The notes below the pieces were generated by a model. The model worked only from the letters and a program-made list of their open reading frames with translations. It was not told the origin of the DNA and made no database searches. A stretch of DNA of 64,000 nt from a virus, in IMG/VR virus record IMGVR_UViG_3300042892_002528, positions 1 through 64,000 of that record; one strand, written 5' to 3'. Both the position numbers and the translations under genes were made by a program. Of this stretch, positions 11,366 through 34,500 are shown piece by piece. Position 1 is the stretch's first letter. Every line of letters starts with the position of its first letter.

Positions 11366-11394
11366 ATTATAGTACAAATATTTTCATATTAGAA
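11366..11394 (-). promoter_or_regulatory. weak promoter candidate before GT2-TPR gene
   Basis: On the minus strand a perfect -10 TATAAT (11366-11371) lies 17 bases from TTCTAA (11389-11394), which matches the -35 consensus at only 3 of 6 positions and overlaps the fibre gene's end. Suggestive only; this is the one gap in the lysis-fibre region large enough for a start site. Confidence 0.35.
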
Positions 11395-13656: not shown

Positions 13657-15081
13657 TTATCCAAACTTTGTTTGCGAAACATACACTCTCCAATCCCCAG
13701 GAACTTTAACCATAAACATTACATAAAGATCACTAGCATTAGCACTAACAATAGTAGCACCTCCTTGAAATTGCGGTGTTACGGTTACACCATCAATTTT
13801 GAAAGCAGTAGGATAATAATTAGTAGTAGTTAAATTTTTAACAAAAAAGTTCATTGTTATAGATTCATTATTAGCAAGAAGTGAGCCTAGTGTAGTATTA
13901 ACGTCACCACGTACATTTATAATAAAATTACTTGTTGCCTGATTGCTAAAAATTTTAATAGGTGCTTCGAGAACATCAAGATTTACTTGTGATGCTTGTG
14001 ACCAATTAGACGGATCAGTTATAGATACGTTTTCTTTAAAAGTTTTAATTGTTTTATTAGATACTGATTGCGAACCTGTTAAAGTAACAAAATTACTAGT
14101 ATCAGGAGTACTTACTGTAATTGCGGCATAGCCACCACCACTTGTACTCTGTGTTGTTGCAGTAACCGCGGAACCAACAAAGTTGAGATTAGTGAATGTA
14201 CCTACAAAACCATCTTCATCCCAAACTGCTACACCTGTTTGTGAACCTGTAGGCCCTGTAATACCTTGGATACCTTGAGGACCTGTAGGGCCTGCTACTG
14301 TTGATGCAGCTCCTGTAGGGCCTGTAACACCTTGAATACCTTGAATACCTTGAATACCTTGTACGCCTTGAACGCCTGTTGGTCCTTGAATACCTTGAAT
14401 ACCTTGAATTCCCTGAGTACCTGTAGGTCCTGCTACTATTGAATCTGCTCCTGCTAAACCCTGAGCACCCGTTGGTCCTGTAACACCTTGTATACCTTGA
14501 GTACCTGTAGGACCAGTAGTACCTTGAATTCCTTGAATGCCTTGAATTCCCTGAGCACCTGTAGGTCCTGTAGGTCCTGTAGGGCCCGTAACACCTTGGA
14601 TACCTTGAATTCCCTGAGCACCTGTAGGACCGGTAGGACCTGTAACGCCTTGTAGACCTTGAGGACCTTGAAGTCCGCTAGCACCGCTTAAATCTGTTGT
14701 ATAAGTGTATGTTGAACCATTCCAAAGATACAGTTTTGAATCATCTGGATTCTCTACATTACCTGTATCAATAATTGCAAACTGTCCTGCTATAATTCCA
14801 CTAGGAGAAGTATCAGCAGTTAATGCAGCAACACTAACGTAAATTTTTGCAATTGTAAAACCTAAACCTGTTGTTCCTGTAGGACCTGTAGGTCCCGTAA
14901 CACCTTGAACACCTGTAGGTCCAATAAGAGTTGCGGGTCCTGCAATTGTTTGATTTGGCCAAGCTCCTGTAATTGTAACATTAGTACCTGCTACGAGTCC
15001 TGGAGTAGGTGTACCTGTGCCTCCCTTGGCTATAGGTAGTACCAGTGTAGGGTCAAGTGCGTTCTGAACAATTAAGGTCAT
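13657..15081 (-). CDS. collagen-like tail fibre (474 aa)
   Basis: Order: N-terminal joint ([10 protein letters not shown]), short collagen run, a module of about 70 residues (L-G-F-T-I-A-K-I-Y ... [13 protein letters not shown]) shared with the 1547-residue fibre, a longer Gly-X-Y region rich in G-P-T-G and Q-G-I-Q-G (about 130-270), and a C-terminal beta-rich domain (about 280-474). Collagen triplets predict a trimeric rod. The C-terminal domain is the likely receptor-contacting tip and is not recognised. AAGGA precedes the ATG by 6 bases. Confidence 0.85.
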
Positions 15082-17349: not shown

Positions 17350-18042
17350 CTATACTGAGATTTCAGGAAATAACTCTTTGTGTATGTACTCATGTACTTG
17401 ATCATCGTTGAATCCTAATGTTTTTAATACTCTTGGAGTATGCGGATTACATTTTTGTTGCTGACAATAATAATTTTGCTTGTCAGTAAAATTGTGTTGT
17501 GCTACCATATCTTCATATTTTAACGCTGGGCGATATTTTGATATACTATCTAAGTAGTAAATAAGCGACTTCCTAGAAATCTCTAATAATACCGCTAGTT
17601 CAAAATCAGTATTAATATTACCGGCAGCAACCATACGATTGCTAAATATATTTCTTGCCCACTCGGGTAATTCACGAGGTTTTGCCCACGAAGTTGGTTC
17701 TACTAACTCTTGAAAATACTTGCATAAGGGATGTTCTGGGTCGCCTATAGGTGAAAAATCTAAAAACGCACCTGTAATTTTATTTGTACCAGCTATAATA
17801 TCAAACCCGTATATAGGTGCTGTATCATATGTATGTGGAAATATACACAAGTGCATCATATACAATTTTTTGGATTCCGATACATCAATAACGTCTAAGT
17901 TGGCTCTGCGAACCCAGGCACTTGAAAAATTCTTAGTGTACCATTCTGAGGTGATTTCGCTTGGCGAAGAAAAAGCCCTTGCAGCAAGAATTGCTTCCAA
18001 CTCCGCTGCATGAGCTTTTAATTTATTGAATATTGTGCTCAT
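17350..18042 (-). CDS. ferredoxin-dependent bilin reductase (PcyA/PebS/PcyX/HY2 family)
   Basis: A 230-residue protein, the usual length for the family. It contains the signature block P-I-Y-G-F-D-I-I-A-G (76-85) followed by K-I-T-G-A-F-L-D-F-S-P-I-G-D (88-101), where Asp95 is the candidate for the conserved substrate-protonating Asp. It also has the preceding M-H-L-C-I-F-P (63-69) and a C-terminal segment Y-C-Q-Q-Q-K-C-N-P-H-T-P-R-V-L followed by L-F-P-E-I. FDBRs reduce biliverdin IX-alpha with electrons from ferredoxin to phycobilins. The gene overlaps the heme oxygenase gene by 20 bases, so substrate supply and use are coupled. Which bilin it makes cannot be told from sequence by eye. It ends the metabolic island; a fibre gene follows. 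Confidence 0.85.
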   Translation of the reverse strand: MSTIFNKLKAHAAELEAILAARAFSSPSEITSEWYTKNFSSAWVRRANLDVIDVSESKKLYMMHLCIFPHTYDTAPIYGFDIIAGTNKITGAFLDFSPIGDPEHPLCKYFQELVEPTSWAKPRELPEWARNIFSNRMVAAGNINTDFELAVLLEISRKSLIYYLDSISKYRPALKYEDMVAQHNFTDKQNYYCQQQKCNPHTPRVLKTLGFNDDQVHEYIHKELFPEISV

Positions 18043-18562
18043 TGGCTAACTCTGTAAATAGTTCGATAGCAAAGGCAAAACACTCATTTGCTTCCGCAGC
18101 CATGTTAACGTCTAGTTTTTGACGTAATGCACTAATCAACTCACTACGATTGCTAAATTCGTACATAGTAGCTGCGCCAGGAACAACTTTCTTAATCATC
18201 TGACCACCGTACAGGTCGCCCATATGACGAACATATAAGTGAGCTAAAATCTGATTATCACTTAAATTTCTATTGGTTATGTAATTGATATATTTTAATG
18301 TACTAGGATACAATGTTGTTTTGCATTTTGGTAAATTATCAAAATCAATGCCAATTTGCTCACTACGCTCTATGCCATTTAAGCCGTTTAAAAGGTTTTT
18401 TCTTTTAGCCACTGCTTCAAGAGAATAATAAATTGCTTGCTGATTATATAAAAAGTCAGCATAAACATTTTCAGGAATATTACCACCTAATAACAGCTTG
18501 GTAAAAGGATGAGCTTCTGCAAGTTCATGGTTATCGTGGGTTAATTCTTTTAGAGTGGTCAT
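18023..18562 (-). CDS. ho1: heme oxygenase (biliverdin-forming)
   Basis: A 179-residue all-helical heme oxygenase. His12 is the predicted axial heme ligand, in H-x-x-A-E-x-x-x-F (His12, Ala15, Glu16, Phe20) with the same spacing as human HO-1 His25/Ala28/Glu29/Phe33. The distal-helix signature is V-R-H-M-G-D-L-Y-G-G-Q (111-121; Gly115, Asp116, Gly119, Gly120). The enzyme opens heme to biliverdin, CO and Fe2+. It is shorter than typical bacterial or cyanophage enzymes (over 200 residues), mainly at the C-terminus. It overlaps the HldD-like gene by 32 bases and the bilin reductase by 20, forming one translational unit. Confidence 0.9.
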   Translation of the reverse strand: MTTLKELTHDNHELAEAHPFTKLLLGGNIPENVYADFLYNQQAIYYSLEAVAKRKNLLNGLNGIERSEQIGIDFDNLPKCKTTLYPSTLKYINYITNRNLSDNQILAHLYVRHMGDLYGGQMIKKVVPGAATMYEFSNRSELISALRQKLDVNMAAEANECFAFAIELFTELANEHNIQ

Positions 18563-19316
18563 AAACTTTGTTGGTTTTAGTCATGTCAGCACAAGTATAC
18601 TTTTGATAACTTGCTTTTAACTGTTCGGGCATTGGTATTGTTTGTATAGGAACACCAAAAATTTCAGCTACTTCTAAGAAGCTCTGTGTAGTGCCAGTAC
18701 CAATGTTAAATATGCCTGATTCTTGACTGTTTAAAAAAGCCAGATGAGTAGCAATTACTTGCTCAACTGGTACAAAATCTCTGCGGTATTCGTGACTGTT
18801 TTCAAACACTTTTATTTCGCCAAACTCATTAGCTTGTTTTGCAAATTGGTAGTGTGGGCTAGCTTGTGAGCCTTTATGATTTTCACCTAAACCATATACA
18901 TTAAAGTATCTGAATCCTTGTACTACGTTACCACCTTGGTGTTGTTGGTGATAGCGTTCAAACATATACTTTGACCAAGCGTATGCATTACGTGGGTCTA
19001 CAGGTGCAGTTTCTGAAAAGTCCGTTCCTAAACCGTATACGCTGGCGCTACTTGAGTACTGCAAGTTTACTCCGTAAACTTTACAAGCAGCAAAAAGTTG
19101 ACGACTAAAATCATAATTTTGTCGCATAATTTTGTCAACATCACGCTCTGTGGTTGAGCTGATTCCACCAATGTGAATAACCCAGTCTTGTTCCATAACA
19201 CTAGGCATATTGCCGTCATCCCACTCAAAAACGCTAATCTCGTGGTTAGCATTTTCTAAGGCTTTGAGCATATTTTTGCCGATAAAGCCTTTATGCCCTG
19301 TTAGTAAAATTTTCAT
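18531..19316 (-). CDS. hldD: NAD-dependent sugar epimerase, HldD/RfaD-like
   Basis: A 261-residue extended SDR. The nucleotide motif is G-H-K-G-F-I-G (7-13); the catalytic elements are the Ser cluster S-S-S-A-S-V-Y-G (88-95) and Tyr112-x-x-x-Lys116 in Y-A-W-S-K. R-Y-F-N-V-Y-G-L-G-E-N-H-K-G (136-149) is the block typical of ADP-L-glycero-D-manno-heptose 6-epimerase. It is about 50 residues shorter than E. coli HldD. In LPS biosynthesis HldD epimerises ADP-D-heptose to the L form. Neighbouring kinase and nucleotidyltransferase genes support this substrate, but another NDP-sugar is possible. Start overlaps the HAD gene stop (ATGA). Confidence 0.8.
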   Translation of the reverse strand: MKILLTGHKGFIGKNMLKALENANHEISVFEWDDGNMPSVMEQDWVIHIGGISSTTERDVDKIMRQNYDFSRQLFAACKVYGVNLQYSSSASVYGLGTDFSETAPVDPRNAYAWSKYMFERYHQQHQGGNVVQGFRYFNVYGLGENHKGSQASPHYQFAKQANEFGEIKVFENSHEYRRDFVPVEQVIATHLAFLNSQESGIFNIGTGTTQSFLEVAEIFGVPIQTIPMPEQLKASYQKYTCADMTKTNKVYDHSKRINPR

Positions 19317-19606
19317 TTAAAATATGTGTCTGCGTTAATTGCTTTGTCATCAATCCAAATATCGTACGCAGGTTTTCCTGTTTTAGCAGAGGTGTATTTA
19401 CAACCCCAGCTTGTTAATTGTTTAAGTGTTAAAGGCAACCAGTCAATTCCACTGTTGCTACCACGTGCTGTCCAATAATGTATTTCGTGTCCAGCATCGT
19501 ATAATTCATTAATTTTTAGAATACGATTTGGTAGGGGCTGACTATTTTCATAATCGTTACCTTGAGTTTCACAAATAGTATTGTCAATGTCTACAATATA
19601 TCTCAT
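19313..19606 (-). CDS. small HAD-type phosphatase (97 aa)
   Basis: The Asp nucleophile motif is V-D-I-D-N-T-I-C (Asp6 and Asp8), motif II is in Y-W-T-A-R-G-S, and the metal-binding C-terminal motif is D-I-W-I-D-D-K-A. At 97 residues it is a minimal HAD core without a cap, like the small phosphatases of capsule/LPS gene clusters. In the ADP-heptose pathway a HAD enzyme (GmhB) removes the 7-phosphate between kinase and nucleotidyltransferase steps; this protein could fill that slot but is much shorter than GmhB. Start and stop overlap the neighbours by 4 bases each. Confidence 0.78.
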   Translation of the reverse strand: MRYIVDIDNTICETQGNDYENSQPLPNRILKINELYDAGHEIHYWTARGSNSGIDWLPLTLKQLTSWGCKYTSAKTGKPAYDIWIDDKAINADTYFK

Positions 19607-19959
19607 TGTTGGCTGTCACCTTTGCCAACACGATAATTATCTTCTACTGAATCTGGTGTTGAAACTTCAATAATTGTGCCTGCTTCTAAGCAAATTAACT
19701 GATGCGGTAAAAGTACTGGATTATGCCAAGTATCGCCAACACTAAGTTCGTGCTCTGTTTGCGAAGCATCAGCTGTGTTAATAACTACGACTTTAAACTT
19801 GCCACTAAGCACATACCAAGTTTCATCTTTGTGGGCATGAAAGTGCATTGAAAATTTAGCATTTTGATTAAACTGCAGTAGTTTACCACAATACTTGTCG
19901 TTGGTAGCCCAAATATTTTCTGAACCCCAGCCTTTTTCCACAAAACCTTCAAGCCTCAT
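19603..19959 (-). CDS. cupin-domain protein, sugar-phosphate isomerase-like (118 aa)
   Basis: A single cupin barrel with motif 1 H-F-H-A-H-K-D-E-T-W-Y-V-L-S-G-K (metal ligands His39, His41, Glu46) and motif 2 L-P-H-Q-L (His86). It resembles the C-terminal cupin of type II phosphomannose isomerase/mannose-1-P guanylyltransferase and WbuC-like proteins. Embedded in a sugar nucleotide cassette, it probably isomerises or binds a sugar phosphate. The heptose pathway needs a sedoheptulose-7-P isomerase (GmhA) that is otherwise missing here. I only note the gap; a cupin is not a known GmhA. Overlaps the kinase gene by 11 bases. Confidence 0.75.
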   Translation of the reverse strand: MRLEGFVEKGWGSENIWATNDKYCGKLLQFNQNAKFSMHFHAHKDETWYVLSGKFKVVVINTADASQTEHELSVGDTWHNPVLLPHQLICLEAGTIIEVSTPDSVEDNYRVGKGDSQQ

Positions 19960-20734
19960 TTATTTCTTTCAGTGTAGGTGCGTATACGCCCATGTGTTTT
20001 ACTGTTATTGCAGCTGCTTTGTTAGCAAACTCAATAGATTTAGCCATGTCTTTGGTATTTAAAAACTCGTAAGTTAGTGCTGCCAGAAACGTGTCGCCTG
20101 CTCCGCAAACATCTGCTACTTCTACAACTGGTGCAGGGTAAACAACATCATTATATCGTGTACCATTTTTACCAAGTGTTACAATTAACTGACTAGGAAT
20201 TGTTTTAGCTAATGAGTTTTCTAGGCTATTGATTTTTACAAATGTTCCTTCAAACCTAGCTAAATCTGTTTTCTTAGTGTCAACAAATATAGGGCAAGAG
20301 AACATCCTTATTAGTTGTTCAACTAGTTCATAACTAACGCAGCCTTTGTTGTAGTCACTAATAACTACCGCATCAAAAATAGGAGGCAGCGGGTACTCAA
20401 TCTCAAAAGGCCCGCCAGTAGCGTCTTGATCTAAACGCATAATATGTTGGTTAGAACGAGTGTCTATAAATCTAGTTTTTACGCTACCTTTTATAGTTAA
20501 TAGCTGTACCGTACAACCTAAAGATTTTAAATTTTCTTCTACATTTCCTGCCATACCTCTACGAGTTTCTTCGTGCTCAGGTACAAACACAGGAACTGGA
20601 GCTTCAGGGCTCAGCCTATCAATGTGACCATATACGTATTGGTCAACACAAGTGTCGCCTACTAATAAAATCTTCCAAGATTTGGGTACTTGAGAAAGGT
20701 GTTGTTCTATTATAGAATCTAAGTTGCTTTGCAT
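19949..20734 (-). CDS. PfkB-family sugar kinase, HldE/HldA-like (heptose kinase)
   Basis: A 261-residue ribokinase-fold protein. The N-terminal block L-L-V-G-D-T-C-V-D-Q-Y-V-Y-G followed by R-L-S-P-E-A-P-V-P-V-F is characteristic of the HldE kinase domain. G-M-A-G-N-V replaces the usual G-G-A-A-N-V. The PfkB signature 2 is D-V-C-G-A-G-D-T-F near residue 215. The reaction would be D-glycero-D-manno-heptose 7-phosphate to the 1,7-bisphosphate. I prefer ATG 20734 over the in-frame TTG 12 bases upstream; either way the first 30 codons overlap the nucleotidyltransferase gene in another frame. About 50 residues shorter than the E. coli domain. Confidence 0.85.
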   Translation of the reverse strand: MQSNLDSIIEQHLSQVPKSWKILLVGDTCVDQYVYGHIDRLSPEAPVPVFVPEHEETRRGMAGNVEENLKSLGCTVQLLTIKGSVKTRFIDTRSNQHIMRLDQDATGGPFEIEYPLPPIFDAVVISDYNKGCVSYELVEQLIRMFSCPIFVDTKKTDLARFEGTFVKINSLENSLAKTIPSQLIVTLGKNGTRYNDVVYPAPVVEVADVCGAGDTFLAALTYEFLNTKDMAKSIEFANKAAAITVKHMGVYAPTLKEINEA

Positions 20735-21050
20735 ATTCCGAACCAATTACGGTTTTATCTTTATAATCTGACCCTACAATCATTATATCAGGTCTAAGTA
20801 TTTTTACTGTTTGTGTTAATTCTATGTCGCTATCAAAAATCACTACTTCATCTACTGCTTTTAGATTTTCTAATAATTTCATTCTATTATATTGTGGGTT
20901 GACAGGTCTATCCAAACCCTTTTTGCTGGCGACTCGGCTGTCCGAATCTATTGCCACCAGTAAAAAGTCACCTAGACTTTTTGCGTAGTTCAGCAAGTCT
21001 AGGTGTCCTGGATGTAAAACGTCAAAAGTGCCGTTTACAAATATTTTCAT
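20643..21050 (-). CDS. heptose-1-phosphate nucleotidyltransferase, HldE C-terminal/HldC-like
   Basis: A 135-residue cytidylyltransferase-fold protein. The nucleotide motif is G-T-F-D-V-L-H-P-G-H (His-x-Gly-His), then R-P-V-N-P-Q-Y-N-R and R-P-D-I-M-I-V-G-S-D-Y, and the C-terminal S-S-T-Q-I-L of the family. The inferred reaction is ATP plus D-beta-D-heptose 1-phosphate to ADP-heptose. A glycerol-3-phosphate cytidylyltransferase-like activity is the alternative. In E. coli this domain is the C-terminal half of HldE after the kinase. Here the order is reversed and the genes are split, with a 92-base out-of-frame overlap. The start overlaps the carbamoyltransferase stop (ATGA). Confidence 0.85.
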   Translation of the reverse strand: MKIFVNGTFDVLHPGHLDLLNYAKSLGDFLLVAIDSDSRVASKKGLDRPVNPQYNRMKLLENLKAVDEVVIFDSDIELTQTVKILRPDIMIVGSDYKDKTVIGSEYAKQLRFYNRTTPFSSTQILEDFISRRHLC

Positions 21051-22846
21051 TTTTTAATTTTAACTGTTAAAAGCTTATTATACTCTGGTAAATACAAATA
21101 GTCAATACCAGATTTACTCAAGGTCCACAGAGCATCCTCTAGGGTTTCCACCAGAGGTTCGCCTCCCAAATTAAAACTTGTGTTAAAAATAATGGGAACA
21201 CCCGTTTTATCTTTAAATGCTTTAATTACATCATAGTAATGTGGATTTTCTTCTCGTGTAACTGTTTGAATACGGCAAGTACCATCAACGTGAATAATTG
21301 AAGGAATTTTTTCTTCGATACCAGGCTGACAATTAACAGCATACATCATGTGTGGGCTGTTTGGCATACCACGAAGATCAAACCATTCGTGAACATCTTC
21401 TTCTAAAATAGAACCTGCAAAAGGTCTAAAGTATTCGCGATGTTTAATTTCATTTACAAAATCTTTGCCGTCTGGGAACGTAGGGTCAAACATCAAACTA
21501 CGATTGCCTAGTGCACGAGGACCATTCTCTGAACGACCTTGGAACATTGCAACAATGTTCTTTTCTGTCATTAAGTTAATTACGTCTTCTTTAGTAGCAT
21601 CACTAATTTCTGCATCATACTCAGCAGCAATGCGCTCAATGTCTTCTTCAGAGTAGTTATATTGTGGGCCTAAATAAATTTCACGTGGGTGTTTAGCATT
21701 AACTGCATCAGGCTCTGTCATATGATAGAATACCAGTGCAGCGCCAATAGCAGTACCGCCATCATTAGATACTGGCTCAACATACAGTTCAATACCACGT
21801 TTAGATAGCTCTGTTAAGTAAAAGTAATTTGCTACACAATTTAAAGCGTAACCGCCACTTAATACTACTTTATCTTTACCAGTAGTTTCTACAGCTTTTA
21901 GGATAAGATTAAGAACTTGTTCTTGAGTCTGTGTTTGACAAGCATAAGCAAGATCTCTACGATTTTGTAGTAGTGTAGGATTATCAATATGAAATGCTGA
22001 ACATAGTTCAGGATATGCCATATGACTAACTTCTGCTCCATTAGGCATTTGTGGTACAACTACATTAGCATTTGAAAGAGGTACTATAGTACCAGAGCTA
22101 AATAGCTTTGGAATATTATCGTTGGGTTTACCATATGGAAATAATCCCATAGTCTTTCCAGCTTCAATACCTTCAAAGCCACAGTATTCTGTAACAGCTT
22201 CATAAACTTTAGTAATTCCTGCATGTCCGCTGAATACTACTTCATGTGTGCCTTCTTCACCTAGTTTCTCGCTAGACTCTTCTAAGCTATGATATACAGG
22301 TATGGCCATTCTAGAAGCGTAGTGTTTATACAGCGTTTTAAAAGGTTTTGTATATTCACAGTCAAAAATAGACTCTACTTCCCATAACACAATAGGTTCA
22401 TTTTTATAAACAGCTGGCATGGCACTACCAGCACCATCTACAATAACTGCTACAGCATCTTCAAAGCCGCTACGATAAAATGCAGCAGCAGCATGAATTT
22501 TGTGGTGTTGACTACTAAGATCAATTACTTGAGGATGTCCCTCAGGCGTTCCTAGTTTACCGTCAATTAAACCTAATTTTCGTGCAAGTCCTGTATAAAC
22601 AAAATCACCGTAAAAATCTACTTTGCCACAAGTTTCTACTAAGCTTTGAGTATGTGAAACTACAATAAAGTCTACTTTTTTAGTATATTCTTTTACTTTA
22701 ATCATAGCAGCATAGGGACCACCATCATACTTAGCTCTACTTAATCGTTCTTCTTCGATAGCAAATACAATTTTACCATCTTTTAATAAACATACTCCTG
22801 CGTTATGTCCACGACTAATTCCAAGTATATATCCTGTTTTTTCCAT
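21047..22846 (-). CDS. carbamoyltransferase (NodU/CmcH/TobZ family)
   Basis: A 599-residue two-domain enzyme transferring carbamoyl from carbamoyl phosphate, via carbamoyl-AMP, to a hydroxyl group. The N-terminal ASKHA/TsaD-like domain shows I-S-R-G-H-N-A-G-V, the metal-binding H-H-K-I-H-A-A-A-A-F-Y near residue 115 and V-D-G-A-G-S-A. The C-terminal domain carries F-Q-G-R-S-E-N-G-P-R-A-L-G-N-R-S and later F-N-T-S-F-N-L-G-G-E-P-L-V. The length is full for the family. Known relatives carbamoylate sugars, antibiotics and Nod factors. Beside heptose enzymes and a GT9 transferase, a carbamoylated sugar on LPS or on a phage component is the natural inference. A DNA-base substrate cannot be excluded. 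Confidence 0.93.
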   Translation of the reverse strand: MEKTGYILGISRGHNAGVCLLKDGKIVFAIEEERLSRAKYDGGPYAAMIKVKEYTKKVDFIVVSHTQSLVETCGKVDFYGDFVYTGLARKLGLIDGKLGTPEGHPQVIDLSSQHHKIHAAAAFYRSGFEDAVAVIVDGAGSAMPAVYKNEPIVLWEVESIFDCEYTKPFKTLYKHYASRMAIPVYHSLEESSEKLGEEGTHEVVFSGHAGITKVYEAVTEYCGFEGIEAGKTMGLFPYGKPNDNIPKLFSSGTIVPLSNANVVVPQMPNGAEVSHMAYPELCSAFHIDNPTLLQNRRDLAYACQTQTQEQVLNLILKAVETTGKDKVVLSGGYALNCVANYFYLTELSKRGIELYVEPVSNDGGTAIGAALVFYHMTEPDAVNAKHPREIYLGPQYNYSEEDIERIAAEYDAEISDATKEDVINLMTEKNIVAMFQGRSENGPRALGNRSLMFDPTFPDGKDFVNEIKHREYFRPFAGSILEEDVHEWFDLRGMPNSPHMMYAVNCQPGIEEKIPSIIHVDGTCRIQTVTREENPHYYDVIKAFKDKTGVPIIFNTSFNLGGEPLVETLEDALWTLSKSGIDYLYLPEYNKLLTVKIKK

Positions 22847-23887
22847 TTATGCCTCTTTAGCAATTACATCTTCAATCAAACTAGTAGGCTTTTTTGCAAA
22901 GTTTGGCATACTTTGAGTTTGAGTGTTTATTGGTTTAACGTTTGTTGTAAAGTCTTTTTTGGCTTTACTAACACCTAGTTTATTTTCTACACTTTTAATA
23001 ATTTTAGTGTAAGTATCAGTACTAAGAATCATTGAATCTTCATTGGTTCTTTCAGCGTCTATATCATGAGTTAACCTGATTGGAGTATATGTTCTTGTTG
23101 CTTTTCCATTATCAATAATAGTAAAGTTTTTGTTGTCTGGATAAGATATATTTTCAGGAAATGTTGAACCTATTACGACTGTAGTAGGCTTATCTAAAGC
23201 ATGAGCAAAATGTTGCCCTACACTATCACATCCTAAAAAGTAGTCACAGGCTTTAATAATTCCTGCCCATTTAACTAAATCTATATTTTCTGGAATTGCT
23301 GCTGGTATATCCTTGTCTGTAGGCACTTTAAAAGGTAACATTAATATTACCGCGTAATTTTTGCTTAAATCAGTTACTAGTTTAATAGTATCGTTTAATT
23401 CAAAACTTCTACCAGTAGTATCAAATACAAAATTGCCTTCTAGTTTTACACCGCTTCCAAACGGCTGTACAACTACGCATTTTTCTTTACCAAGTTGCGC
23501 TTTTACTTGATTTACTAAATTATACCCATATACTTGTTCAGCTTTGCCAAGTTCTAAATTGATCGGTTTAGAACTTGGTACGCTTTCTAAGTTGTTTATA
23601 ATTTTGTCAAATGCTTGAATAAGATTAGCTTTTTGGTTAAAATAAGCATTTAATCTATAAGGTTCAGGACATTCAATTTCTCTATCTTTAAGTTTTTGTT
23701 CAAAAAGATTTTTATGGGCAACATGATATACGTTATTTCTTAAAGTTGGACTGAGTAAAAATAACTCAGGCCATGCTTCGGCAATAATAACTACATCTTT
23801 ATCGATATTATTTTTATAGTACTCTAGAGCAGGAAGTGCACATAGTACTCTTCCTGCTCCCCCATTTATTGCAAATGCTTTTTTCAT
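22847..23887 (-). CDS. GT9-like (heptosyltransferase-type) glycosyltransferase
   Basis: A 346-residue GT-B protein. Residues about 140-160 give V-V-V-Q-P-F-G-S-G after a first Rossmann half (I-N-G-G-A-G-R-V-L-C-A-L-P-A). The second half shows D-Y-F-L-G-C-D-S-V-G-Q-H-F-A-H-A-L followed by P-T-T-V-V-I-G, the pattern of the donor-binding site of ADP-heptose:LPS heptosyltransferases. The C-terminal 50 residues are Lys/Thr/Asn-rich and probably disordered. Together with the kinase, nucleotidyltransferase and epimerase genes it would complete a pathway that makes and transfers ADP-heptose. Adjacent to the carbamoyltransferase with no gap. Confidence 0.8.
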   Translation of the reverse strand: MKKAFAINGGAGRVLCALPALEYYKNNIDKDVVIIAEAWPELFLLSPTLRNNVYHVAHKNLFEQKLKDREIECPEPYRLNAYFNQKANLIQAFDKIINNLESVPSSKPINLELGKAEQVYGYNLVNQVKAQLGKEKCVVVQPFGSGVKLEGNFVFDTTGRSFELNDTIKLVTDLSKNYAVILMLPFKVPTDKDIPAAIPENIDLVKWAGIIKACDYFLGCDSVGQHFAHALDKPTTVVIGSTFPENISYPDNKNFTIIDNGKATRTYTPIRLTHDIDAERTNEDSMILSTDTYTKIIKSVENKLGVSKAKKDFTTNVKPINTQTQSMPNFAKKPTSLIEDVIAKEA

Positions 23888-23910: not shown

Positions 23911-24990
23911 TTAATTCCAACTAACACAAACCATACCAAATCGTCCAGCATCTCCGCCATATGCACTCTGTCCGCCCTCCGCTACTAAGCCTGCTCCGCC
24001 TGCTCCAGGAATACGTAAGAATCCATTTGGCGCACCGTAATAACATCCTCCAAAACTACCGCCTTGGCAACTATTACCCCAAGGGTATGCAAATTCCAGC
24101 ACACATTTTTCAAATCCAACTACGGGTGTAGATACTGAGCACCAACACATGCTAGTTCCAATTTGCATTGCGGGCCATAAACCTTGTACGCCCCAATAGT
24201 TTTGATTTCGGGATGTATCGGCACACTTTACAAACCAGTTCGCCTCTCCGGAAAATGCGTGAGGTATATAGGTGTTATCATCAGTACTGTCATAGCACCA
24301 ATTCCATCCCGAACACTGAGTAGGAGCACAATTATCTTGCGCAGGATATTGAGTATTGTTAGCCGTTGTTGTAGAACCAACATCTTTAGACCAACAAGTT
24401 GCACAACTTTTAGCACCATTGGCGCAAATACTTAGACCTGGGCCAGTAATGTAGGTAGGTGTATTATTAAGTCCTGGAGTTGTTTGGTCAGCATAGCAGC
24501 AGTAAGAACATCCGGCGCATAGTGTATACACAGCACCAGCAGTTACCTCCATTTTTGTTAACATATATGCACCACTTGGTCCAAAAGGCGCACCACCACA
24601 GCAACACTGCGAACTAGTACTTCCGCCTGGCCCCCATATTTGAAACTGTACACTAGTTACACCTGCAGGTACAGTCCACGTACAAGAAGCATCACATCTC
24701 CAATAACTTCCGTCAGTATTGCATACTTTAAGACCATTAGTCCGTGTTTCAATATTTGGGCTAACCCAGCACTTCCAAGCGTCTGTTACTACTTGCTGGG
24801 TCCCTGAAATTGGCATACTGCACCAGCATTTACTTGTTAGAAGAGGCCAACCTGTTAAAGTTCCTGTAGTACCTCTAAAACCGGCATCATTTGGTAAACT
24901 GGGAATTCCAGTCGAACTTTGTGTTTTTAAGTAGGCAACCAAAGTTTTTTGATTTTCAATCATTGCCGAACTTGTTAATATATCGCTCAT
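23911..24990 (-). CDS. cysteine-rich, glycine-rich tail appendage protein (359 aa)
   Basis: 26 of 359 residues are Cys, many in C-W-C, C-C-C and C-x-x-C settings. An N-terminal segment (S-D-I-L-T-S-S-A-M) matches that of the protein at 25679. A domain starting C-T-W-T-V-P-A-G-V-T-S-V and ending G-M-V-C-V-S-W-N is the glycine-rich receptor-binding type (T-W-T-V-P-A-G-V-T core, W-G-P-G-G, G-G-A-G-G). In ordinary members these loops hold glycine without Cys. The number of Cys suggests metal clusters or a dense disulfide network in the assembled particle. It is the last fibre gene before the metabolic island. Confidence 0.7.
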   Translation of the reverse strand: MSDILTSSAMIENQKTLVAYLKTQSSTGIPSLPNDAGFRGTTGTLTGWPLLTSKCWCSMPISGTQQVVTDAWKCWVSPNIETRTNGLKVCNTDGSYWRCDASCTWTVPAGVTSVQFQIWGPGGSTSSQCCCGGAPFGPSGAYMLTKMEVTAGAVYTLCAGCSYCCYADQTTPGLNNTPTYITGPGLSICANGAKSCATCWSKDVGSTTTANNTQYPAQDNCAPTQCSGWNWCYDSTDDNTYIPHAFSGEANWFVKCADTSRNQNYWGVQGLWPAMQIGTSMCWCSVSTPVVGFEKCVLEFAYPWGNSCQGGSFGGCYYGAPNGFLRIPGAGGAGLVAEGGQSAYGGDAGRFGMVCVSWN

Positions 24991-24999
24991 ATTTATTCC

Positions 25000-25668
25000 T
25001 TAAGTTTGTACTGGGGCTGGTATAGCCACAGGAGTTAGTGTATTAAATAAAGCCATCAACTCACCAGGTATTTCTGGAACATCGTTTGCAATAGTAATAA
25101 ATTTCCACTTATATGCAGGTTTAACTTTATTTACATAAGCTGAAATAACAGTTAAATAAGCTTCTACTTTTGTACGATCTTCTGCACTAAATTCGTGATC
25201 AGCTAAATATTTTTCTACTAACTGTTGTTTTTGTAGTGCAGGCATTAAATTAGGATTTGGCTCATTCTTTGCTATTGATATCAAAGATAGCACCCCTGTT
25301 TGACTGCTTACTACATCATAGTAGTCACTTAGCTTAGGATTACTTATTGCATAATATACGCTATCATCATAGTTTATTTGTTTGGTATGAGTGTATACAT
25401 GTGGTGTTAATTCTGGTTGTAAAATAATTGCTGCCGCTAGTTCGACTTCGGTTGCAGTAGCAATTTCAACAGGTACAGCAACTTGATTTTCATTTACTTG
25501 TGGTTCTGATGTATATGTAACAGGACTAACTATTACACTAACGCCTGTTTTTTCAACTAAGAACCAGACTTTGTCAGGTCCTGAGTAGGTAAAATCAGCT
25601 GTTTTATTTTCTGAAAAATCGTTTACCCAAAGTTCATTGGGTATTTTTATTGTTAAAGTTTTTTCCAT
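25000..25668 (-). CDS. fibre-associated protein of unknown function (222 aa)
   Basis: A soluble, acidic protein with no signal or membrane segment. The N-terminal half is beta-rich with V-W-F-L-V-E-K; the C-terminal half is helical (L-Q-K-Q-Q-L-V-E-K-Y-L, A-Y-L-T-V-I-S-A-Y-V-N-K-V) and ends Y-K-W-K-F-I-T-I-A-N-D-V-P-E-I-P-G-E-L-M-A-L. Endings of this W-K-F ... P-x-I-P-x-x-L type occur in small proteins beside fibre genes of aquatic phages. Its place between the two Cys-rich proteins suggests a fibre assembly chaperone or cap; this is inference. AAGG lies 8 bases before the ATG. Confidence 0.55.
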   Translation of the reverse strand: MEKTLTIKIPNELWVNDFSENKTADFTYSGPDKVWFLVEKTGVSVIVSPVTYTSEPQVNENQVAVPVEIATATEVELAAAIILQPELTPHVYTHTKQINYDDSVYYAISNPKLSDYYDVVSSQTGVLSLISIAKNEPNPNLMPALQKQQLVEKYLADHEFSAEDRTKVEAYLTVISAYVNKVKPAYKWKFITIANDVPEIPGELMALFNTLTPVAIPAPVQT

Positions 25669-25678
25669 GATTTATACC

Positions 25679-26659
25679 TTATGCCCAGCTAACTTTTACC
25701 ATACCGGTTCTACCCCAGTCACCATATAAACTTGTACATCCGCCAAAAGCGCTGTTAAACATTCCGCCATGACCAGGAATTAAATTACATCCTGCACAAG
25801 CCATTACACCTCGACCACCGCAGCAAGTAGTTGTAAAACAATCACACGTAATTGAACTCATATTTCCATTTGGTAATGGTAGTGAATATGTGCAAACATT
25901 ACCATACGAGCTTGCGTTTAGCATCATAGCAGCATTTTGGCTTTTAAGGCCATAAACTGTAGCATTAGTAGCTGTACCAAAAAAGCTTGCTGCAGCTAAA
26001 AAGTCTCTGCGCAGTGGGCCAGTTGGGTAACCGTTCATACAAGTAGAGGCAAGACCAAGTCCACATATACAAGCACCACTTGCACCGCCACCGTAACCTT
26101 GTCCAGCCCACCTAGTACAACCAGTAGCCCATTGATTTCCTAGTTGGCACATAGTATACACCAAGTTAGCGCAACCACCCATAGCACAAAAATTTGTTAA
26201 ACCTGCGCCAGTAACAAAACTAGGGCATCCGCTTACATCACACTGTTGTGTGCAATATGACTGTATTAAGTGTGCAGCTCCTGCACACAGTACATATGCG
26301 TTTCCTGGTGTTACAGTCATGCAAACACTAGCGTAAGCACCTGAATTACCTGTGGGTGCAAATCCGCAACAAAGACCTGCTTGGCTGCCTGCTCCAGCTC
26401 CCCAAAGTTCAAATCGAGCTTTAGTTACACCTGCGGGTACAGTCCAGGTACATGTTCCTCCGTCTCTGAAGTAAGTACCTGCGTCATATACACATATTTG
26501 ACCTACTGGTGCAGGTATTTTTGGTAGTACTGCTGACCAAAAAGAGTAACACAAAGGATTATTTAATATTGGTATAATTTCTGTAGGTTCTCCTAAGAGC
26601 TCTACTCGCATATCTCTAGTTCCTTTAGAGATAGCGTTATGCATTAATATATCTGACAT
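25679..26659 (-). CDS. cysteine-rich, glycine-rich tail appendage protein (326 aa), paralog of the 359-aa protein
   Basis: 25 of 326 residues are Cys. It shares with its neighbour at 23911 the start S-D-I-L, the core C-T-W-T-V-P-A-G-V-T, paired Cys after W-G-A-G-A-G, the C-A-G-A-A/C-A-G-C motifs and the end G-M-V-K-V-S-W-A. The two are diverged paralogs flanking the 222-residue gene. The glycine-rich fold suggests a fibre tip. Cys spacing is irregular rather than zinc-finger-like. AAGGAA lies 9 bases before the ATG. Confidence 0.7.
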   Translation of the reverse strand: MSDILMHNAISKGTRDMRVELLGEPTEIIPILNNPLCYSFWSAVLPKIPAPVGQICVYDAGTYFRDGGTCTWTVPAGVTKARFELWGAGAGSQAGLCCGFAPTGNSGAYASVCMTVTPGNAYVLCAGAAHLIQSYCTQQCDVSGCPSFVTGAGLTNFCAMGGCANLVYTMCQLGNQWATGCTRWAGQGYGGGASGACICGLGLASTCMNGYPTGPLRRDFLAAASFFGTATNATVYGLKSQNAAMMLNASSYGNVCTYSLPLPNGNMSSITCDCFTTTCCGGRGVMACAGCNLIPGHGGMFNSAFGGCTSLYGDWGRTGMVKVSWA

Positions 26660-26670
26660 ATATAATTTCC

Positions 26671-29547
26671 TTAAACTACGGTAATGGTTTTTATACTACC
26701 ATCAGTTTCGTTGTATGTAAGAGATACTGATTTAGTAACCCCCGCCTTTATTTCTTGATAGCTATTAACTACGGTTTGTAATTGTACATTACCAAATGTA
26801 CCATAAACAACATTAGTAAAATTAATGCCTGTGGTATCTTGCATTGCAGTTACCCTTGGAGCACCACGAATAGTACTATAAGCAACAGTATCTACGCTAG
26901 TATAATTTACTGTTTTATCACCTGAATTGTTGTCTACATAAGTTTTTACAGCAAATTCAGTAGGTACAGCATTATTTGAATTACCACTCATTGTACCATC
27001 ACTGGAGAACTCATTAATAAGTTCGCCAAGCTGAGCACCAATTGATCCTAGTTTCAAACTAGTTAAACCTGCCAAATCGAAAGCAGAGGCATTTAGAGTT
27101 GCACGTCCAGTAGCTTGATCAATACGGAAGTATTCACCTACGCGGAAATTACCATCTTGGTCAGTAGACACAAAGTAAACACGACCAGGGTATGCTTCAT
27201 CAACTTCGTTGCCTTGAGCAGATGGTTGAGTAGGAGTATTTGGGTAATTAGTAGTAGCTGTTCCACCTGTACCAATACTTAAAAAGTCATGTCCTGTTAA
27301 ACGAATTTGTGAATATTTATATCTTATTGTAACAGAAGAACCACTTGCACTTCCAGTCGGTTTTTCTTGTGCTAATACTATAGCTATTTTACTTGTAGCA
27401 TCTACATAAGTACCTGTTACACTTTGTATAACATAGCTAATCGTATCGCCTGCAATACTAATAGAGGCTCCGGGGGTAGGTAAAGTAGCTAAACCTGTTA
27501 CTACTAGTATAAATCCTTTTTGATCTTCTAAAGCACCAGCACTTACAACACCAGTTCCGCCACTTGTAAATGTTAGTGGATTACCTAATGTAAATGTTCC
27601 AGTAGCGCTAGTAACATAAATTTTATTAGCGTTAGACTGTACATTAGTTACTGTGGCTGTAGCACCTGTAGCAGTATTAGTAACTGTATCACCTACTACA
27701 ATGTTACCACCAGTATACAAGAAGTTTAATTGTTGTCCAAATACACTTCCAGTTACAGGTGTTTCACCTGCTAAAAAGCCTCGGCTGGTTGCTCCCCAGG
27801 TTCCGTAACTGTTGTTACCATTAAGTGAGCGAATAAATCCACCACCAGTAGCAGTATATCCAAAATAATTATAATAAGTAAAACAACTAACAATTTCAGC
27901 TTTACCACCATCTTTTACCCAAAAGCCTACACCGTTGTCGTTAATACAAGTGAATGCATGGAAGATCATACTCTTATTACCTTGTGCATTAACACTACCG
28001 TCAACTAAGGCAGCAATAGCACCTGATCCAATAAAAGAACACTCTAATACATAAGGAGATTTAAACAATATAGGAGCACTAGGATTTAATCTTACTACTA
28101 CACCTCTAATAGTAGAAGTAGTAATGTCTGCGGCAGTAGTTCCAGGAACCCAGCCAGTCATACCTTTAAACGTCATCCTATTTAAAATAGAACCATCGTT
28201 CATTAAAAACATAGAAGAATTAATGTTTAAAACAGAACCGTCATCGCTAAAACCGCTTTTAGGTTGAACAACTACAGTACGTTGATTGTCTCCGACAATA
28301 GCTACGTTTGCTGGAACTGTTATAGGTAATTGTTCGTTATAAACACCTGTACTAACAAAAATTGTACCACCATTAGTGCCAATATTATCACAAGCATAGC
28401 GAATAGAAGCATAAGGAGTAGCTAAATTTTTACCAGCAGCTGCTGTATCTGTTCCGTGTGGCGCTACATATCTGACGTTTAGACTCTCAGTAGCCCCTAT
28501 CCAGTCTACACCGTTACCAGCTGCATTAACTGTTAAACTTCTACCAGAATCTCCTGCTTCAAGAGCAGGCAATAAATCTGAAGCACCTACTACAAATTCT
28601 TGCCATTTACCAGCTGTAAAATCAACAGTAAAATCAGAGCCAGCAGTATGATCTTGAGCAGCTATGTAAACACTACCTGTTGCACTTTTAACAATATCAT
28701 CTTTAACATAAACTGTAGTAGCTGTCCAAGCATTTTTCCACTGAAGACCACTTGCAAATCGTGCCCATCTAGAAGCAGACAAATCAGTAGCAAAAGTTGT
28801 GGCTGTGTGTCTTAAAAGACATATATAGCTTGTTCCGCCACGAATAACAATATCATTTATAAAGTATTCTGTACCAACTGTCCAAGTACCTTTTGTACGG
28901 AAACCTTCCGTAAATACTTCCCAGTAACCCGAATTTAAACTACCATTAGCTAATGTAGGTAATTGATTAGTTGAATTAGTAGTTGCTTTAAAAGTATTAG
29001 CACCGTAGCTAACAACTCTTCCTGCAGCATAAGCTGTTGCTGAATTCCATGCTCCTGCAAAAGATATACCGTCTACTAGTTTATCCCAATAAGTTGCATT
29101 TATAGGATTATTTCCAGTACTATCTATTTTAGCTATATATGCCGATCCACCATATGTTACAACGTCATTTCTTTGATATGCAGTTGCATCTGAGTAGCTA
29201 GCTTCATATTGAATACCGTCAGCAAATTGCGACCAGTATGTAGTGTTAGGAGGTGTGTTTGCACTACCATCAGCAATAGCAATATATACTCTACCACCAT
29301 ATGCAATACCATCACCAACTTTATAAGCTGTTGAGGCGCTGTATACGCCTGTAAACTTTATACCCTCTACCAACAAAGACCAAAAATTGGTAAGAGTTGG
29401 TATACGTCCGGCCTCATTAACAGGATAAACGTAAACGTAAACATTTCCACCGTAACGAACGCAATCGTTGTATTCGTATATAGTAGTTGACGACCAATTG
29501 CCCTGAAATGATAGGCGTAATTTTCCTAAGTCAAGAATTTGTCCCAT
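26671..29547 (-). CDS. tail fibre with six CBM-like repeats and a beta-helix (958 aa)
   Basis: Residues about 15-325 contain six repeats of about 50 residues with the pattern W/Y-x-S-x-T-x-Y-x-x-x-D-x-V-x-Y-G-G-x-x-Y, ending Y-W-x-x-x-x-x-G-I-x-F. This resembles carbohydrate-binding modules of the chitin-binding (CBM5/12) type. Residues about 355-560 start V-R-Y-V-A-P-H-G-T-D and continue T-I-F-V-S-T-G-V-Y-N-E, a right-handed beta-helix (pectate-lyase-like) pattern. The rest is beta-rich with a C-terminal segment (F-R-V-G-E-Y-F-R-I-D-Q-A-T-G-R-A) seen in virion structural proteins of aquatic myoviruses. Probably a glycan-binding or depolymerising spike; no catalytic triad could be picked out. 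It overlaps the previous gene by one base (TAATG). Confidence 0.82.
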   Translation of the reverse strand: MGQILDLGKLRLSFQGNWSSTTIYEYNDCVRYGGNVYVYVYPVNEAGRIPTLTNFWSLLVEGIKFTGVYSASTAYKVGDGIAYGGRVYIAIADGSANTPPNTTYWSQFADGIQYEASYSDATAYQRNDVVTYGGSAYIAKIDSTGNNPINATYWDKLVDGISFAGAWNSATAYAAGRVVSYGANTFKATTNSTNQLPTLANGSLNSGYWEVFTEGFRTKGTWTVGTEYFINDIVIRGGTSYICLLRHTATTFATDLSASRWARFASGLQWKNAWTATTVYVKDDIVKSATGSVYIAAQDHTAGSDFTVDFTAGKWQEFVVGASDLLPALEAGDSGRSLTVNAAGNGVDWIGATESLNVRYVAPHGTDTAAAGKNLATPYASIRYACDNIGTNGGTIFVSTGVYNEQLPITVPANVAIVGDNQRTVVVQPKSGFSDDGSVLNINSSMFLMNDGSILNRMTFKGMTGWVPGTTAADITTSTIRGVVVRLNPSAPILFKSPYVLECSFIGSGAIAALVDGSVNAQGNKSMIFHAFTCINDNGVGFWVKDGGKAEIVSCFTYYNYFGYTATGGGFIRSLNGNNSYGTWGATSRGFLAGETPVTGSVFGQQLNFLYTGGNIVVGDTVTNTATGATATVTNVQSNANKIYVTSATGTFTLGNPLTFTSGGTGVVSAGALEDQKGFILVVTGLATLPTPGASISIAGDTISYVIQSVTGTYVDATSKIAIVLAQEKPTGSASGSSVTIRYKYSQIRLTGHDFLSIGTGGTATTNYPNTPTQPSAQGNEVDEAYPGRVYFVSTDQDGNFRVGEYFRIDQATGRATLNASAFDLAGLTSLKLGSIGAQLGELINEFSSDGTMSGNSNNAVPTEFAVKTYVDNNSGDKTVNYTSVDTVAYSTIRGAPRVTAMQDTTGINFTNVVYGTFGNVQLQTVVNSYQEIKAGVTKSVSLTYNETDGSIKTITVV

Positions 29548-30140: not shown

Positions 30141-31598
30141 TTATCCTAACGCTATTGCATAGACGGTTGCTGCATTTGTAGCAACTTCTTCTATCGATTG
30201 AGCACTTACTGAGTCACCTAATAGCTCTCGGACAATTATTTGAGCTCCACTATTTAGTGTCGGGGAAGTAATTGTTAAAGTAGTTCCAGAAACAGTATAA
30301 TCAGTAGTAGGTCTTATTACTACACCATTAACTACCACAAAAATAGTATTAGCAGTTAGTCCAGCATTAATTGTAAAAGTATTTGTACTTCCATTTGCCG
30401 TAAAAGATTCTGTTACCATGCTGTAAGGAGTAGTACCTACTGGACCAGTTGGTCCTTGAGCACCTTGTACTCCTTGAATACCTTGTGGCCCTTGTAATCC
30501 TGTTGCTCCTTGTAGTCCTATTGGTCCTGTAGGGCCTACTATTGTTGAAGCAGCCCCTGTAGGGCCTTGAAGACCTTGAGGTCCTGTTGCGCCTGTATCG
30601 CCTATAAGACCTTGAGGTCCTGGAATTATTGATGCAGGACCTTGAGGGCCTGTTGGACCATCACCAAGCATTTCTCTAATTACAATTTGACTTGCAGGAC
30701 CTGGAGTTACTGTAAATCCTAAATTAGTACCAAGAACTGTATAGTCTGCACCTGGTCTTAATATTGTATTATTAACAATTACTAATAAATTATTAACACT
30801 AAGATTTGGACCTATAGCAAATGTAGCTGTAGTACCGTCCCCTGTATAAGTTTTAGTAGTAATTATAAAGGGGAATCCGTTACCTATAGGTCCTTGTATA
30901 CCTTGGTCACCTTTGACACCTTGAGTACCTTGAGTACCCTGTGGACCTGTAGGTCCTTGAAAACCTTGAAGACCTTGAGGACCCTGGATACCTTGAGCTC
31001 CCTGAGGACCTTGTGCTCCCTGAATACCTGTTCTAGCAAAGGTAATAAGTATATCTTCAGAATTTACAAAGGGAGTATTACTGCTTCCACTAACAAAAGA
31101 ACAACCTATATTGAAGAAACCTTGCTCTTCGGAAATTGAAGTTATTGTAAATAATCCAAATACTGAAAGATTAGACTTCTTAGAAATTCTAAAGTGACCT
31201 TTTATAGAGGCAGAAGAATTGTTAATTCCTCTTACGTATTCTTGAATATCTGACGAACTATCATCTAGATCATCAATTCGCAGTATTGTTGCGAGATTGA
31301 GAGAAGCATTATTGAATTTTAACTTTCCTGGTCCAGGATCACTATTTGCTACACTAGTATCAAATGTATAATCAAATGATGCACCACCAAAGTTACCGTC
31401 ATTACCTTGTACACCTTGTGCTCCCGTGGGACCTATTGCTCCTGAAGAATATGGCAAGGAGTTCCAAGCGGATACTCCGTTACCAATCTTAAACTTTTCT
31501 GTGTCTAATTCTACACAAAGCTCACCTTCTACAAGAACAGGATTAACACTAGCCCACTGTGCCGCGGTGCCGCGTCTTAGTTGAACGTGAATTGCCAT
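30141..31598 (-). CDS. collagen-like tail fibre (485 aa)
   Basis: The N-terminal domain ([12 protein letters not shown], then G-E-L-C-V-E-L-D-T, then F-K-I-G-N-G) is the attachment domain common at the base of phage tail fibres. Two collagen regions (about 190-240 and 325-385) each lead into a beta module with the [13 protein letters not shown] pattern or a close variant, ending R-E-L-L-G-D or R-E-M-L-G-D. These modules are shared with the 1547-residue fibre next door. A trimeric rod is expected. The start overlaps the previous stop (TAATG). Confidence 0.85.
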
Positions 31599-34500
31599 TA
31601 AATTACTCCTCCCCCATCAATTAAGGGTAAACCACCATAAACAGAATCAGGACGTCCGCCGTCTAAATTGATTCCTTCGAGTGTACTTGTTAGTGTTAAA
31701 CTTTTTGGACTTGTTGCGTTATTAGTATTAAGTATAATACCCGGTCCTGCAACAAATTGTAACGTTGATTGTCCTGTTGCTACTAAACTTGTTTGCCCAT
31801 TAACTGCTAAAGTGCTAAATGCGTCAGATAGACCCCCACCACCACCACCACCTGCTAGTGCGTTTAGAGTACCATCTTCAGTTATTGTTAAATTATTACC
31901 AACTTTAATACCGCCTAAGGCAGTTGTAGTTGCTGGTGAAAGTGTTGCTGTGCCGTTTTGACCGGCAGGTCCTTGGGCACCTGTAGGTCCCGTAGTACCT
32001 ACTCCTGTAGCACCTGTAGGCCCAGTTAAACCTGTAGCACCTGTAGGTCCAGTTAAACCTGTAGCACCCGTAGGTCCTGCTACCGTTGAATCTAAACCAT
32101 TTGCACCTTGTGCACCTGTTGGTCCTACAATACCTTGAGCACCTGTTGGTCCTGTATTACCTTGAACACCTGTTGGACCCGCTATTGTTGAATCAGCACC
32201 TGTAGGTCCTGCAATACCTTGCGAACCAGTGGGTCCTTGAATACCTTGTGAACCAGTGGGGCCTGTAGTACCTTGAACACCTTGTGAACCAGTAGGTCCT
32301 GCAACTGTTGAGTCAGCACCTGTAGGACCTGTAATACCTTGTGAGCCCGTAGGACCTGCAGTACCTTGATCGCCCTGGATACCTTGAATTCCTTGTGCAC
32401 CTGTTGGACCTGCAGTACCTTGTATACCTTGAGCACCTGCGAGACCCGTAATACCTTGATCGCCTTGTGCACCTTGAATACCTTGAATACCTTGTGAGCC
32501 AGTAGGACCTGTAGCACCTTGTGACCCTGTAGGTCCTGCAACGCCTTGTAAGCCAGTAGGACCTGCAACTGTTGAGTCAGCACCTGTAGGACCTTGAATA
32601 CCTTGAATACCTTGTAGACCTTGAGGACCTTGTAGTCCGCTTGCACCACTTAAATCTGTTGTATAAGTATAGTTTGTACCATTCCACAAGTACAATCGTG
32701 CATTGTCTGTGTCGCTAACGTTTCCTGTATCAATAACTGCGAACTGACCTGCTACAATTCCTGTAGGAGCTGTGTCTGCAGTTAATGCAGCAACACTATC
32801 ATAAATTTTTGCAATTGTAAAACCAAGACCTGTAGAACCAGTAGGGCCTGTGACACCTTGAATACCTTGTGTACCTTGTGTACCTTGTATACCTTGAAGA
32901 CCTGTCGGCCCTGTTGCTCCTGCAGTACCTTGATTGCCTGTAGGACCTGCAACACCTTGAGTACCTGTAGGTCCCTGTATACCTTGAATACCTTGAATAC
33001 CTTGAGTACCCTGAATACCTTGAGCACCTGCAGGACCTGCTACTGTTGATGCAGCTCCTTGAATACCTTGAATACCTTGTGCACCTGTTGGCCCTGTAGG
33101 ACCTGTAGCGCCATAACCAATACTTGTACCACCAACAGATAAAAATCCACCACTAACACTAATTGGCGTACCGCCTAGGTCAATAGTATCAGCAGCAAAG
33201 TAACCAGTTTTCCAACGTTTTGTTGGAGAACCAATATTATATACTTGATCTAATGCAGGTATAATATGGCTACTAACGTTAGTTAAGTCAATTGAGGGGC
33301 CTGTAGGACCTGTTGGGCCATCACCAATCATTTGTCTAACAACAATTTCTTCACCAGTAAAAGGTGCTGCTGTAAACGTTAGTGTTGTTCCGCTTAGTGT
33401 ATAATCTGTTATTGGTTTTAATACTAAACCATTAGAAATAACTATTATACTGTCAACAGTATATCCGCTATCAATAGTAAAATTAGTAGTACTGCTATCA
33501 CCTGTATAAGTTTTAGTAGTAATTATAAAAGGGAATCCGTTACCTGTGGGTCCTGTTACACCTTGAATACCCTGAATACCTTGAATACCTTGAGCACCAG
33601 TAGGTCCTACAATACCTTGTATACCTTGTGACCCTGTAGGTCCTGCAACTGTTGATGCGGCTCCTGTAGGTCCTACAATACCTTGTGTACCTGTAGGACC
33701 TGTAGGACCTGCTACTGTTGATGCAACTCCTGTAGGTCCTTGTGTACCTTGTGTACCTTGAGGACCTGTAGGACCGTCACCAATCATTTGTCTAACAACA
33801 ATTTCTTCACCAGTAAAAGGTGCTGCTGTAAACGTTAGTGTTGTTCCGCTTAGTGTATAATCTGTTATTGGTTTTAATACTAAACCATTAGAAATAACTA
33901 TTATACTGTCAACAGTATATCCGCTATCAATAGTAAAATTAGTAGTACTGCTATCACCTGTATAAGTTTTAGTAGTAATTATAAAAGGGAATCCGTTACC
34001 TATAGGTCCTTGAATACCTTGTGAGCCCTGAATACCTTGAATACCTTGTGACCCTGTAGGTCCTGCAACGCCTTGTAAGCCTGTTGACCCTGTAGCACCT
34101 GTTGGGCCTACTACTGTTGATGCAGCCCCTGTAGGTCCTTGATCACCTGTTGGACCTGTAACACCTTGAATACCTTGTCCACCTGTAGGTCCTGTAATAC
34201 CTTGAATACCTTGTATTCCTTGAGCACCTGTAGGGCCTGTAACACCTTGAATTCCTTGAATTCCTTGAACACCTTGAATTCCTTGAGTACCTGTGGGGCC
34301 TACAACACCTTGAATACCTTGATCGCCTTGTACACCTGTTGGTCCTGTAACACCTTGTATTCCTTGATCGCCTTGTGCACCTGTTGGTCCTGTAACACCT
34401 TGAACACCTTGTATACCTGTTGGTCCTGTAACACCTTGAACACCTTGTGCACCTGTTGGTCCTGTAACACCTTGTATACCTTGATCACCTTGTATACCTG

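Follow-up and report, generated by a model that had tools for sequence, protein, structure and literature searches.

How might a protein that is presumably built into virions in the cytoplasm keep 25–40 cysteines, and could its activity depend on redox state or on metal? This question is raised by a locus in a 64,000-nt stretch of viral DNA (hereafter the window), which belongs to an IMG/VR record of 71,053 bases. Genes on the minus strand follow the order tail fiber (26671–29547), a 326-aa protein with 25 Cys (25679–26659), a Cys-free 222-aa protein (25000–25668), a 359-aa protein with 26 Cys (23911–24990), a 346-aa protein, and a carbamoyltransferase. Open reading frame counts put the cysteine content of the two rich proteins at 7.7% (326 aa) and 7.2% (359 aa), in agreement with a preliminary description that had assigned them 25–26 Cys each, or about 7–8%, and had called this load exceptional. 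Across the window's remaining 48 ORFs, Cys averages 0.52% and never exceeds 2.06%, and the binomial probability of such counts relative to the rest of the window is 2.7e-21 and 1.9e-21, that is, a chance of about 1e-21 for each protein. The 597-aa Gly_rich_2 protein that the same description cited as free of cysteine (15472–17265, minus strand; Pfam Gly_rich_2 E 5.9e-18) indeed has none, and it serves as an internal control outside the Cys-rich family. The suspected paralogy of the pair was also borne out, with 34% identity over residues 54–325 (E 6e-18). Of the cysteine motifs attributed to both proteins, however, C-W-C and C-C-C are limited to the 359-aa protein; its 326-aa paralog has C-C, C-x-C, and one C-x-x-C.

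Genes for heme oxygenase and ferredoxin-dependent bilin reductase, a phoH gene, and the agreement of the locus order with that of P-SSM2 mark the source virus, on sequence grounds, as a T4-like cyanophage. The heme oxygenase and bilin reductase genes adjoin each other at 17350–18562 (Pfam E 1.1e-16 and 2.6e-20, respectively). The 958-aa protein directly upstream of the Cys-rich pair matches a tail fiber profile (phrog_9851, E 4.5e-205), contains six CBM_5_12 stretches, and occupies the same place in P-SSM2; it is the likely carrier of the two proteins.

Structure prediction points to a known kind of fiber tip. The AlphaFold2 model of the 326-aa protein, built with 82 relatives (pLDDT 87.1, pTM 0.86), has an N-terminal helix at residues 4–22, further short helices at 28–32 and 35–44 (pLDDT 65–94 across the three), and a TNF-like/glycine-rich head spanning residues ~50–326. 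Its best matches among solved folds are the Pam3 tail fiber (Z 12.5 over 182 residues, 3.1 Å) and the Bxb1 tail tip (Z 11.7), followed by the glycine-rich (TG) regions of ALK/LTK (Z 7.4–8.6), which have the same arrangement; unrelated entries score below Z 3. The ALK/LTK domains share the combined TNF-like and glycine-rich fold but belong to animal receptor ectodomains, so that the likeness is one of fold only. Among predicted viral structures in BFVD, the model matched P-SSM2 Q58M49 (E 6e-27), many phage 'glycine-rich domain' proteins, and Syn9 gp38. A search of solved structures by sequence with the family profile gave no match. The glycine-rich scaffold of the preliminary description is thus right in fold and weak by sequence: the two window proteins have E values of 0.2 and 0.85 against Gly_rich_2 (PF21722), their scores of 10 and 12.1 bits lie below the gathering cut-off of 24.3 bits, and 11 of 82 relatives match it at E ≤0.1 (best E 1.5e-5). 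The clear family matches are to profiles of unknown function, phrog_35878 (E 3.6e-49 for the 359-aa protein and 1.2e-43 for the 326-aa protein) and phrog_4205.

The Pam3 fiber gp24, whose glycine-rich tip is 39% Gly, also has a TNF-like domain and a helix for docking, and requires the chaperone gp25 (PDB 7ypx, 7yfw; PMC9608196). The predicted fold shares its N-terminal helix, TNF-like domain, and glycine-rich distal domain, but differs in composition, with 13–15% Gly and 7–8% Cys in place of 39% Gly in the distal domain, and in gene arrangement, with two or three copies per genome behind a long fiber gene. Neither cysteine nor disulfide is mentioned in the Pam3 paper (PMC9608196), which reports gp24 to be similar to S16 gp38. 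Adhesins of the S16/T2 gp38 type likewise have a variable glycine-rich tip and a gene adjoining that of the distal fiber; they are absent among the fold matches listed, and the window proteins differ from them in having a TNF-like middle domain rather than a β-helix and in being rich in cysteine. In terms of the polyglycine motif GGGGxGG, neither window protein contains a GGGG run (Gly 12.8% and 15.0%), and because these motifs are lacking we regard the Cys-rich tips as a variant rather than a plain member of the Pam3 gp24 kind. The TNF-like/glycine-rich phage fiber tip is a known kind, and what sets the present proteins apart is extreme cysteine in place of the polyglycine lattice. Typical glycine-rich proteins, such as the 597-aa window protein and Syn9 gp38, have 0–2 Cys, unlike the Cys-rich tips. 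The gene for Syn9 gp38 (2 Cys, 22% Gly) lies four genes after the tail-fiber gene gp34 and adjoins those of other Gly-rich proteins, so that tips of the two kinds, Gly-rich/Cys-poor and Cys-rich, seem to substitute for each other at comparable positions.

Related proteins recur across cyanophages. By tblastn, relatives were found in P-SSM2/P-SSM5, S-SSM7/S-SSM6a, S-CAM1, S-CAM3, Sf-FS3, and single-cell marine viruses, where their annotation is hypothetical or absent. Scans of viral contigs yielded 308 distinct proteins, all of them (308/308) at 6–12% Cys with a median of ~10%; these were fetched through likeness to Cys-rich queries, although neither the final filter nor one of the search patterns required cysteine. 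Comparison ORFs from the same loci have a median of 1.2%, and overall the cysteine content of the tips and their relatives is 10- to 20-fold the usual level. In the loci read, tip genes stand in pairs or triplets just after a tail-fiber gene (as in P-SSM2, S-SSM7, S-CAM1, and Sf-FS3) and beside a nearly Cys-free gene of 210–270 aa. In P-SSM2, for example, a Cys-free protein of 225 aa separates gp304 from gp306, each of which contains 36 Cys (10.1%); in S-SSM7, Sf-FS3, and S-CAM1, three consecutive Cys-rich copies precede a gene of the middle type. Two classes can be distinguished: a long class of ~320–440 aa with two copies, to which the window belongs, and a short class of ~260 aa with three copies. 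Within the long class, upstream and downstream copies are for the most part distinct lineages between which some exchange has occurred (the tree shows 11 label changes versus 27 when labels are shuffled). No true Cys-rich member was found in one scan of genome contigs covering 84,980 prokaryote species; an origin from prophages or bacteria was considered and rejected, the only hit in these species being one short match to an ordinary Gly-rich, Cys-poor protein in an Actinomycetota MAG. We found no description of Cys-rich cyanophage fibers in the open-license literature searched, and this large cyanophage family appears not to have been described previously. In two loci (L020:7344 and L031:8626), a divergent Cys-rich protein (~9.5–9.8% Cys, with 'LYNCNGCWNGS') without the TVPAGVT motif takes the place of the downstream copy and is possibly a further tip type.

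The 222-aa protein between the two tip genes holds a constant position in P-SSM2, S-CAM1, S-SSM7, and >40 contigs, and 34 of its 42 relatives match phrog_9740. Its AlphaFold2 model (pLDDT 92.3) has a β-rich N-terminal half and a helical C-terminal half, and the model had no match among solved folds at E <0.25, the best being an unrelated chain at Z 6.4. Pam3 gp25, whose gene likewise adjoins the fiber gene and which also combines a β N-terminal part with a helical C-terminal part, was considered as a relative and is absent among the fold matches listed. The missing fold match counts against a chaperone, but given its constant position, low cysteine content, and β-plus-helix layout, the 222-aa protein probably helps the tips to fold, perhaps in a role like that of gp25 or Tfa, and the earlier suggestion that the pair flanks a possible fiber chaperone is plausible. 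In S-SSM7 and Sf-FS3, a further protein of 210–219 aa (L003:11260–11919 and L006:7618–8250) lies between the tip genes and a block of sugar genes; in Sf-FS3 it is annotated as prolyl 4-hydroxylase-like.

Cysteines are concentrated in the head of the tips. In the 326-aa protein, 24 of 25 Cys lie from residue 51 onward, and across 269 relatives the head has 11.3% Cys versus 2.3% in the N-terminal part. Six cysteines of the long class are near-invariant (C70, C97, C98, C158, C199, and C207, each in 93–99% of 82 proteins), and the short class has 19 columns with Cys in at least 90% of sequences; outside the near-invariant core, variation is fast. Where the long class has lost a cysteine, R, K, E, and Q are overrepresented among the substitutes and buried residues and His are not, which suggests that the variable sites are exposed. 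The short class instead replaces lost cysteines with W, L, H, or D. Residues 104 and 134 in the short class (L089 and its relatives) show a repeated swap of Cys and an aromatic residue: of 175 sequences, 126 have C-Y/H/F and 34 have W-C, and none has C-C. The two sites changed in opposite directions in 7 independent contrasts, an outcome reached in 0 of 5000 permutations (p <0.0002 among 231 pairs; borderline to significant after correction). This pattern shows that one Cys is retained at one or the other of two positions that probably touch, as expected of a cysteine that has a partner, whether another Cys or a metal, although recombination of a 30-residue block could help to keep the two states linked. 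In the 13 short-class sequences that lack both cysteines, no partner column was lost jointly with them.

What, then, are the cysteines for? We place disulfides as their main role at about even chances, and we consider cross-linking of the loops after release the most likely explanation, with metal binding less likely. Virion proteins fold in a reducing cytoplasm, which counts against disulfides. Precedents nonetheless exist in the Agrobacterium phages Milano and 7-7-1, whose virion proteins are likewise rich in cysteine and whose virion disulfides are known (PMC10811340; PMC12796354). There the content is only 1.4–2.6% Cys, spread across sheath, tube, baseplate, and capsid, whereas here it is 6–12% and confined to putative fiber tips; T4 has 0.9% Cys and Milano 1.4% (2.1% in structural proteins) (PMC10811340). 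Naive co-occurrence of cysteines was strong at several pairs (phi 0.81 for 66–131, 0.64 for 128–132, and 0.62 for 58–322), but we withdrew pairwise covariation as proof of disulfides, because neither tree events nor independent contrasts show an excess (3 Cys pairs at p ≤0.001 versus 3.4 expected). Cysteine parity is random (odd to even 105 to 101 and 55 to 62), and close relatives differ by odd numbers of cysteines as often as by even numbers; thus, not all cysteines can be paired within the chain.

The random parity and the single gains and losses would also suit tips in which only a small core of cysteines is structural and most are free and exposed thiols; these would react with the surface of the host or with further proteins of the virion, giving covalent attachment or cross-links between tips. 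A halo of variable cysteines around a small invariant core and the replacement of lost long-class cysteines by charged residues of an exposed type fit this reading as well. We nevertheless judge it unlikely: exposed thiols should oxidize in oxygenated water, and we know of no acceptor for them. A somewhat better, though still doubtful, case can be made that the same adhesin uses its cysteines to ligate Zn, Cu(I), Fe, or Fe-S clusters acquired in the reducing host cytoplasm, either for folding or as a receptor lure (an iron 'Trojan horse'). High cysteine in a protein that is synthesized under reducing conditions agrees with this proposal, and so does the C-x-x-C-x-x-C-C motif ('LCAGCAYCCY') found in most relatives, which the 359-aa protein keeps and of which the 326-aa protein lacks three of the four cysteines. 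In the short class, moreover, Cys is replaced by His or Asp at ~3.6 times background, and columns 45/79/222/245 are lost jointly as x-W-H-N. No such enrichment at lost cysteines is seen in the long class, that of the window (His 1.16, Asp 1.08); Arg and Lys are enriched there instead, and no sequence feature was found that points to a classical metal site. To our knowledge, no solved relative of the fold binds metal through Cys. Iron in phage tail fibers is itself on record (PMC11705849), which lends the proposal some further support.

All of these readings take the proteins to be part of the virion, and it is very improbable that they are non-structural Cys-rich proteins that merely adjoin the fiber genes. 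We know of no detection of the tip proteins in virions by proteomics, and none was found in the literature searched, as a non-structural role would predict; the proteomes of S-SM1, S-PM2, and Syn9 have been reported (PMC3037559). The predicted fiber-tip fold and the constant place after the tail-fiber gene argue against such a role, as does the position in Syn9 of Gly-rich, Cys-poor proteins, including the BFVD match gp38, just after the tail-fiber gene gp34. We are therefore confident that the two proteins are fiber-tip adhesins, and the earlier view of them as a pair of receptor-binding appendages on a glycine-rich fold is supported.

Returning to disulfide cross-linking, our preferred explanation, we propose that both proteins serve as tips of the long tail fiber in a T4-like cyanophage, either as alternatives or jointly. 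Each tip would probably be a trimer attached through its N-terminal helix to the fiber end (26671–29547), with the TNF-like and glycine-rich head turned outward and, by likeness to Pam3 gp24, binding the host surface; the 222-aa protein would probably assist its folding. In known tips of this fold, long polyglycine runs hold the distal loops together. Since glycine is lower here (13–15%) and the head has 9–11% Cys, we propose that Cys-Cys links between loops and strands take over from the polyglycine lattice and clamp a fast-varying recognition surface. The cross-links would form mainly after lysis, in oxygenated water. More tentatively, and at somewhat less than even chances, the family may represent a widespread class of adhesins in which recognition loops are held by dense Cys cross-links or metal-thiolate sites rather than by a polyglycine lattice, on a hypervariable scaffold that is assembled in the reducing cytoplasm and set on release.

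If the proteins are indeed fiber tips, they would be the first candidate determinants of host range for aquatic viruses of very high abundance. P-SSM2, S-SSM7, S-CAM1, and S-CAM3 are named, isolated cyanophages whose tip proteins are annotated only as hypothetical, and a content of 6–12% Cys exceeds severalfold that of phages in which virion disulfides are known.

Several further features of the window lie near these genes. Downstream of the tips, positions 18531–23887 hold a sugar or surface-polymer block, also present in P-SSM2, S-SSM7, and S-CAM1, with genes for epimerase-like and cupin-like proteins, a kinase, a nucleotidyltransferase, a Nol-like carbamoyltransferase, and a glycosyltransferase-like protein. 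Very long tail proteins of 1547 and 474 aa (31598–36241 and 13657–15081) contain collagen-like GPTG/QGIQG repeats, and a 752-aa protein with five SBBP β-propeller stretches (11389–13647; Pfam E 3.4e-27) adjoins the appendage genes.
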